From Desulfobulbaceae bacterium (GTDB lineage Bacteria; Desulfobacterota; Desulfobulbia; Desulfobulbales; Desulfobulbaceae), in assembly GCA_019163135.1 (NCBI GenBank), contig JAFLKR010000123.1, positions 1 through 49,830 on the forward strand: a stretch of DNA of 49,830 bases, read 5' to 3'. Made by a program: the position numbers and the translations under genes. This document shows, one piece after another, positions 23,100 through 30,663 of this stretch (position 1 is the first letter of the stretch; each line of letters starts with the position of its first letter). Below the pieces are notes generated by a model. That model worked only from the letters and a program-made list of their open reading frames with translations, searched no databases and had not been told where the DNA came from.

Positions 23100-23251
23100 T
23101 CTGTACGCGCTGATTTTCCTTACAACCCTCCTGTCCCTAGGCGTTGGCGTCTGCCGAAACCTTCGGTTCTCCTTTTTTATTCGGGCGGACAAGGTCTGGT
23201 ATTCGTATCGGTTGGCGGCATGAGGGCTTTTTTTTTTGAAGACTCCCGGGC

Positions 23252-29857: not shown

Positions 29858-30663
29858 TTGGGTGCAAATCACGTGGACGCGCAGGAACAATTCGATCAAC
29901 AAACGCTGACCGAGCATCTGGCGGAGCTGCGCTCCTGCCTGCTGATCACGCTCGCCGCCGTGGCCGTCGGTTTTATCGCGGCCTACAGTGTTATCCAGTC
30001 GCTGGCCGACTGGTTTCTCCGGCCGCTGATCAAGGTGTTGCCGGAGGGTAAATCCCTCATCTTCACCTCTTACCAGGAAGGGTTTTTTTTTATCTAAAGC
30101 TCGCCCTGGTGTGTGGCGCTGTCCTGGCCAGTCCGGTCATCTTTCTCCAAATTTGGCGATTCATCTCGCCGGGTTTGTACCGGCATGAACGACAGGTGCT
30201 GGTACCTTTCACGATTGTTTCCACGCTTTGTTTCATCGGCGGCGCCGCCTTTGGGTATTTCGTCGTTTTTCCGCCGGCTTTTCGCTTTTTGCTCGGCTAT
30301 TCCAGCGACTTCTTGGAAGCCATGCCCGCGGTCGATGAATATTTTTCTTTGGCTCTGCGGATGTTTCTGGCCTTTGGTGTGATTTTTGAACTTCCTGTTT
30401 TTATGGTATTTCTAGGGAAGGTCGGTGTGGTCAATAAACCGTTTTTGGTGAAGAATAGAAAATACGCACTGCTGATCGCCTTTGTGGTGGCCGCTATTCT
30501 CACACCCACACCGGATGTGGTCAACCAGTTGCTGATGGCCGTGCCGCTCATCCTGCTCTATGAGGTCAGCATTGTGGCGGTGGCGATTTTCGCCAAAAAG
30601 CCCCTGTCTGGTTTTCCGGCCAAGATCGATGTCGATCCCGAGGCGACCGACCATCCCGAATAA
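29858..30663 (+). pseudogene. tatC: TatC twin-arginine translocase subunit, split by a frameshift at a T9 run
   Basis: Two frames together give a full TatC of about 265 residues. The first (29858-30099) has the TatC start TLTEHLAELRSCLLIT and ends in TSYQEGFFFI. The second, open from just after the T run, continues with YLKLALVCGAVLASPVIF, then IWRFISPGLYRHER and the rest of the six-helix protein to 30663. The break is at nine T (30083-30091). One extra T, or a -1 slip, restores a continuous protein (EGFFFYLKLAL). It may be a sequencing error, a real mutation, or a case of slippage. TatC is the receptor for twin-arginine signal peptides. The start is uncertain (TTG 29858 or GTG 29873). No tatA or tatB is adjacent. 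Confidence 0.85.

Follow-up and report, generated by a model that had tools for sequence, protein, structure and literature searches.

How a complete TatC protein is obtained from a gene whose reading frame is broken is the question raised by the tatC locus of the window, by which is meant the whole analysed stretch of 49,830 nucleotides from a Desulfobulbaceae bacterium. The initial annotation had placed the break at a run of nine T (30083-30091) where two conserved TatC halves meet, and both statements are borne out: the run occupies exactly these positions, preceded by GGG and followed by ATCTAAAG, and each half matches the Pfam TatC family (PF00902) and is kept in relatives. The zero frame reads YQE followed by GGG TTT TTT TTT ATC TAA, and the −1 frame begins TAT CTA AAG CTC GCC (YLKLA). 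Full-length tatC, spanning 29873-30663, requires a −1 shift at the run. The features of the site, all on the forward strand, are as follows.

29873-30097, + strand: zero-frame open reading frame encoding N-terminal TatC, 74 amino acids, ending FFFI-stop; Pfam TatC profile positions 1-58
30080-30082, + strand: GGG directly 5′ of the run; GGG in 66 of the 71 orthologs having Gly there
30083-30091, + strand: putative slippage run, T9; of 78 frameshifted loci, 77 have T9 and one has T10
30091-30096, + strand: TAT CTA, the codons with which the −1 frame begins, the Leu codon carrying the zero-frame stop; Leu is CTA in 50 loci and CTG in 28
30095-30097, + strand: zero-frame stop TAA; TAA in 50 and TGA in 28 of the 78 loci
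30091-30663, + strand: −1 frame encoding C-terminal TatC, 190 amino acids, open from the TAT at 30091 to the stop at 30661-30663; Pfam TatC profile positions 56-208, E 6.7e-57

Judging from the orthologs, translation is more likely to start at GTG 29873 than at TTG 29858, the start used earlier. In 41 of 78 orthologs a start codon lies 14 codons 5′ of the HLxELR motif (25 GTG, 14 ATG and 2 TTG, a few loci cut before the motif being scored as without a start), and TTG is found at the position of the window's TTG, 19 codons 5′ of the motif, in 3 of 78. A start at GTG 29873 would thus give an unslipped product of 74 amino acids and a slipped product of about 263, the N-terminal product from TTG 29858 being 79 amino acids long. 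The opposite-strand neighbours of tatC are a PilS-like kinase and a sigma-54 response regulator, and an aldolase-family gene and dxs lie downstream. A second long T run, T10, is present in the window at 23228-23237.

Conservation of the frame break across the order

Within the genus sample, some TatC match was found in 21 of 23 genomes and an ortholog-grade match to the downstream half in 19, the window's included (E about 1e-84 or better). Besides the window, 17 of the 18 genus orthologs have T9 with the identical break, and the remaining one (L008/L039) has GGT followed by T9 and is still frameshifted. In a scan of titled genomes, for which the best 80 of 270 relatives were kept, 76 are frameshifted and four are in frame, the latter belonging to Desulfocapsa (L073, L095) and Electronema (L093, L102). 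The downstream half is 65-90% identical in these best 80 of 270. Two loci (L039, L057) have ten T as GGT plus T9 and keep the same −1 shift; the sequence of another (L097) ends about 40 bases before the run.

The order, which we take to be Desulfobulbales, was sampled with 193 genomes. An ortholog, defined as a match with E ≤ 1e-40, was found in 171 of these, and 163 of the 171 orthologs are frameshifted at the same site and in the same direction. A break that recurs so often is not due to chance. The comparison with close relatives that the initial annotation had proposed returned the same break in nearly all orthologs of the genus and order. A pattern fitting the frameshifted form alone matched in 158 of the 193 genomes and in 55 of 62 genera, and a reversed control pattern gave no match among those listed for the same 193 genomes. 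A run of about nine or more A or T at the frame transition, the criterion of programmed transcriptional realignment, is present in the window; among the 171 orthologs the pattern detects it in 158, and inspection adds five more. All 13 ortholog-bearing genomes without the pattern were inspected: five are frameshifted with other flanking codons (G023, G027, G029, G049, G058) and eight are in frame (G031, G045, G107, G122, G127, G147, G149, G152). None of the eight in-frame genes has a run of at least nine T, the longest being the T8 of G045, and an in-frame T10, or any in-frame run of at least nine T, occurs in 0 of 171 orthologs.

The pattern is absent as well from all 22 genomes in which no ortholog was found; at a looser threshold six of these gave paralog-like matches, G189 also yielding a short fragment of 68% identity. 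Pattern matches and ortholog coordinates, compared by eye for part of the listed matches, agree. A second pattern match occurs in two genomes, in G162 on another contig and in G022 near base 1040 of L208, where the match looks by eye like an intrinsic terminator, with an inverted repeat followed by T9.

Carriers of the break include named members of Desulfobulbus, Desulfogranum, Desulfocapsa, Desulforhopalus and Electrothrix. Among cultured strains, it is present in Desulfobulbus elongatus DSM 2908 and D. rhabdoformis DSM 8777, both with T9, and in D. alkaliphilus DSM 24258, as well as in Desulfogranum marinum DSM 2058 and D. mediterraneum DSM 13871, and 11 single-contig genomes are frameshifted (G003, G004, G021, G022, G026, G067, G103, G143, G160, G163, G188). 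At one locus (L023, G004:C1 near 2459732-2460271) the −1 frame of tatC continues for 578 codons beyond the slip site, as if its C-terminal half were joined to the next gene.

Outside the order the break was not encountered in the genomes and genes covered. A looser pattern, which presumes Gly or Ala before the run, so that other contexts would escape it, matched 16 of 395 genomes in a phylum sample; these are all 16 order members, with 0 of 379 others. The 22 TatC genes from outside the order, the best of a longer list, are all in frame at the site and have T, L or I where the third F stands; three of these 22 alignments contain one stop elsewhere.

Synonymous codon choice around the T9 run

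Codon use was analysed in 78 distinct frameshifted loci fitting the run motif, with L039 and L145 excluded and L190 and L192 fetched afterwards. As the loci were picked by their run, the presence of TTT there in 78 of 78 holds by construction, and 163 of 171 is the unbiased figure. All 78 loci encode the Leu that follows the run by CTA or CTG and by no other Leu codon, and consequently a zero-frame TAA or TGA stands one codon past the run. Elsewhere in the downstream halves CTA makes up 41 of 2031 Leu codons (2%). Across the 26 Leu columns, the next highest share of CTA is about 5% and the next highest joint share of CTA and CTG is 50 of 75, and none of the other 25 columns is limited to these two codons. 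When L145, L190 and L192 are added the counts become CTA 50 and CTG 31; L039 has Phe there. The same codon is CTG in four, CTC in three and CTT in one of the eight in-frame genes, and CTC in five, CTG in two, TTG in two and Ile in three of 12 outgroup genes. At least 14 changes between CTA and CTG were counted on the tree, with none to another Leu codon; such changes are transitions and hence favoured, yet the other Leu columns are mixed. A pair test of the Leu codon against frame state never gave the opposite direction, its four independent pairs being too few for significance. Taken together, these codon data argue that the zero-frame stop right after the run is under selection.

The constraint extends to the neighbouring codons. 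GGG is the codon before the run in 66 of the 71 loci with Gly there; no other Gly column exceeds 24 of 78. The six adjacent codons from −4 to +1 (GGG-T9-TAT-CTR) are all within the 15 columns of top synonymous constraint, and weaker constraint goes on at +3 to +6. High single columns also occur elsewhere, at His +31 (0.69), Val +142 (0.50), Glu +32 (0.47) and Ala +12 (0.42); judged over all columns, DNA-level constraint is concentrated at the site, though other isolated columns are also high. Those of the 78 loci that have Ala before the run use GCC, and those with Gly strongly use GGG.

Probable mode of the frame change

Since the same T9 break stands in nearly every sampled carrier species, slippage at the run can be inferred, and given the order-wide break the protein is almost certainly made by slipping on T9. 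The suggestion of slippage in the initial annotation is thereby strongly supported by comparative evidence, namely the conserved site and the selection on codons. We consider it probable that this is a working tatC whose full-length product depends obligately on a programmed frame change at T9 in which RNA polymerase slips. With the RNA-DNA hybrid consisting almost entirely of rU-dA, the enzyme would slide back along the A9 template and add one U, converting U9 into U10. The U10 mRNAs would be read straight through into the TatC of about 263 amino acids, and the U9 mRNAs would yield the N-terminal fragment of 74 amino acids, halted at once by TAA. In-frame relatives lack T9 and out-of-frame ones keep it, as would be expected if T9 slips here, and a short signal without a conserved RNA fold fits slippage by the polymerase. 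By way of a guess that draws on work on polymerase pausing, GG at the upstream edge of the nine-base rU-dA hybrid might promote a pause, and so slippage.

In the relevant passages of PMC6260861, E. coli RNA polymerase prefers T runs and slips on those of at least seven, with insertion at 5% on T7 and 10% on T8; longer T runs rescue more, and deletion on T8 is as frequent as insertion (10%). GG upstream of a T5 run left slippage unchanged in the same passages (PMC6260861), so the preference for GGG at tatC is left unexplained by them. According to PMC1088944, it is at a length of nine that selection against runs of A or T becomes apparent in a large share of genomes.

A stop in the third frame, which would be reached only by U8 or U11 transcripts, was considered as a mark of transcriptional slippage and rejected: it lies at codon 30-32 in 74 of 78 loci and is not specific to the frameshifted genes. 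In most of these loci it is created, as TGA, by His +31 (window about 30184), which is CAT in 68 of 73 loci. CAT also predominates outside the order (11 of the 13 genes having His there) and is found in four of the eight in-frame genes, so this stop gives no support to transcriptional slippage. The window's genome has 189 T9/A9 matches, overlapping ones included; the first 30 were inspected by eye and gave no clear case of a second slippage gene.

The run is also a U_UUU_UUU heptamer, so the sequence by itself cannot part polymerase from ribosome. Programmed −1 ribosomal frameshifting on this heptamer within the run, the mRNA staying U9, is a less likely alternative. The slippery heptamer T_TTT_TTT lies in the zero frame in the window, the zero-frame stop follows two codons past it, elements resembling a Shine-Dalgarno sequence (AGGA/GGAGG) were seen by eye upstream in many loci, and there is a weak folding signal: in the 70-nt windows that cover the run and the bases directly past it, mean z-scores were −0.90 and −0.61, and none of the other windows among the 21 scored lower (40 of the 78 loci, 15 shuffles each). 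RNAalifold, however, predicted no conserved structure among pseudoknot-free folds over 75 bases in the 78 loci, the Shine-Dalgarno-like element is missing in some loci, for example CAAGAAGGG and CAGGCAGGG, and codon constraint in this region peaks at the run and the codons next to it. From these comparisons the slip is most likely that of RNA polymerase rather than a −1 slip of the ribosome. A candidate stem around the run (ACCAGG/CCTGGT) was rejected: each of its six pairs is kept in 52 to 77 of the 78 loci, the exceptions are for the most part mismatches and not compensatory changes, and no structure is predicted by RNAalifold.

The remaining explanations dispense with a slip during expression or with a functional gene. 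A T9 run within a membrane-system gene would suit a phase-variable (contingency) tatC toggling between T9 and T10 by replication slippage; the ON state, in frame with at least nine T, is nevertheless missing from all 171 orthologs and the eight in-frame genes have broken runs, which makes this reading very improbable. We find it just as hard to credit that the second half is started separately by reinitiation and that the pieces assemble. The window has a GTG at 30109, 12 bases past the stop, and ATG, GTG or TTG occurs within 15 codons in 44 of 78 loci, but no start is conserved, 34 of 78 loci have none within 15 codons, the first ATG lies at median codon 77, and the conservation of T9 would be left unexplained. 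A homopolymer sequencing or assembly error hiding a true T10, which had earlier been judged equally possible and for which the error-proneness of homopolymers and the draft state of the window genome (217 contigs) could speak, is excluded as a general account by order-wide conservation, extending to the single-contig genomes and DSM strains, and by codon-level selection, the zero-frame stop being upheld by the rare codon CTA, the GGT plus T9 variants keeping the shift despite ten T, and in-frame T10 being absent. The chance that tatC is a decaying pseudogene whose role has passed to the other tatC copies is negligible, for although further tatC and TatA/B genes exist in the genome and three T9-type orthologs among those listed (G057, G150, G192) have one stop each inside the matched downstream half, nearly all listed orthologs are free of inner stops, and the break is conserved order-wide together with the downstream half.

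Parallels, possible role and history

Whereas tatC is here an export gene across an order, mxiE of Shigella encodes a virulence regulator confined to one narrow group. The two are alike in that two overlapping open reading frames are joined by one extra nucleotide at a U run, and slippage is described in passages of PMC1088944 as needed for the functional MxiE protein. They differ in that slippage has been shown for mxiE, while the tatC case is known from sequence comparison. The dnaX gene of Thermus thermophilus likewise has a nine-base A/T run (A9) at which slippage leads to two products, as described in parts of PMC1088944 and PMC5009743. For dnaX the unslipped product is the long one, whereas for tatC it would be the slipped one.

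Blochmannia and Buchnera are AT-rich, reduced endosymbionts whose homopolymer frameshifts are reportedly rescued by slippage, according to Wernegreen et al. These homopolymer frameshifts, long kept and corrected by polymerase slippage, resemble the tatC case and are named in PMC5009743. In contrast to these, the zero-frame stop by the run of tatC is clearly under selection. Few genomes of the order existed at the time of the GeneTack survey. That survey (Antonov et al., 2013) sought recoding in clusters of at least five genes and describes clusters which, like tatC, show a conserved frame transition at a poly-A/T motif; words beginning with "tat" or "desulfo" are absent from its main text (PMC3711429). 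No report of tatC slippage was found in the literature searched, which included parts of the surveys PMC3711429, PMC5009743, PMC1088944 and PMC4066793.

Programmed slippage on A/T runs is already known, and what is new is a core gene and an unusual breadth. To our knowledge, few non-mobile housekeeping genes of bacteria show conserved recoding, the textbook cases being prfB and dnaX. Portions of PMC3711429 agree with this rarity. An export gene of a whole sulfur-cycling order, cable bacteria included, appears here to be slippage-dependent, and the frameshifted and reverted genes form a natural series for testing the mechanism and why the site persists. Annotation pipelines are expected to call such a tatC a pseudogene or two fragments.

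The loss of Tat export feared in the initial annotation is unsupported. The search for a second tatC that it had suggested returned two more in the window's genome (C33 and C38), both in frame at the site, and three TatA/B genes are present, one of them adjoining the C33 tatC; with these genes the Tat system need not be lost, and both halves of the T9 copy are conserved. Among the tatC genes, the T9 copy is the one similar to TatC from the phylum's other orders, with a best E of about 1e-60 where the paralogs reach about 1e-30, and it is thus probably the ancestral TatC.

A single added T at such a run is among the commonest mutations. One T would suffice to restore the frame and in-frame T10 is nonetheless absent from the 171 orthologs, which suggests that selection acts on the out-of-frame state itself, whether to lower or tune TatC or to yield the short fragment. 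The nine T were probably kept because the site sets the amount of TatC. More doubtfully, slippage could act as a regulator that fixes the ratio of full-length TatC to the 74-amino-acid fragment, which comprises the first membrane helix and loop of TatC and might have a role of its own or tune Tat assembly. In that case a core export gene would carry a recoding switch that operates throughout the order and is maintained at nine T.

For TatC, a rapidly built maximum-likelihood tree (82 frameshifted, eight in-frame and 12 outgroup sequences; support as SH-aLRT), in which 32 of 99 inner branches are open, places five changes of frame state within the order and six when the outgroup is counted. An in-frame gene (L191) and a frameshifted one (L192) stand at the base of the order, both long-branched. 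On the simplest reading of this tree, which leaves the root state tentative, the frameshift was gained once at the base of the order and reverted about five times; the T9 site would then have become fixed in the order's ancestor and been kept since. Thirteen TatC paralog loci, including the two of the window's genome, are in frame at the site and have no long T run there. One in-frame stop was observed in some TatC paralogs of the genus (L029, G019:C546:2946-3491 and G015:C229:984-1532).
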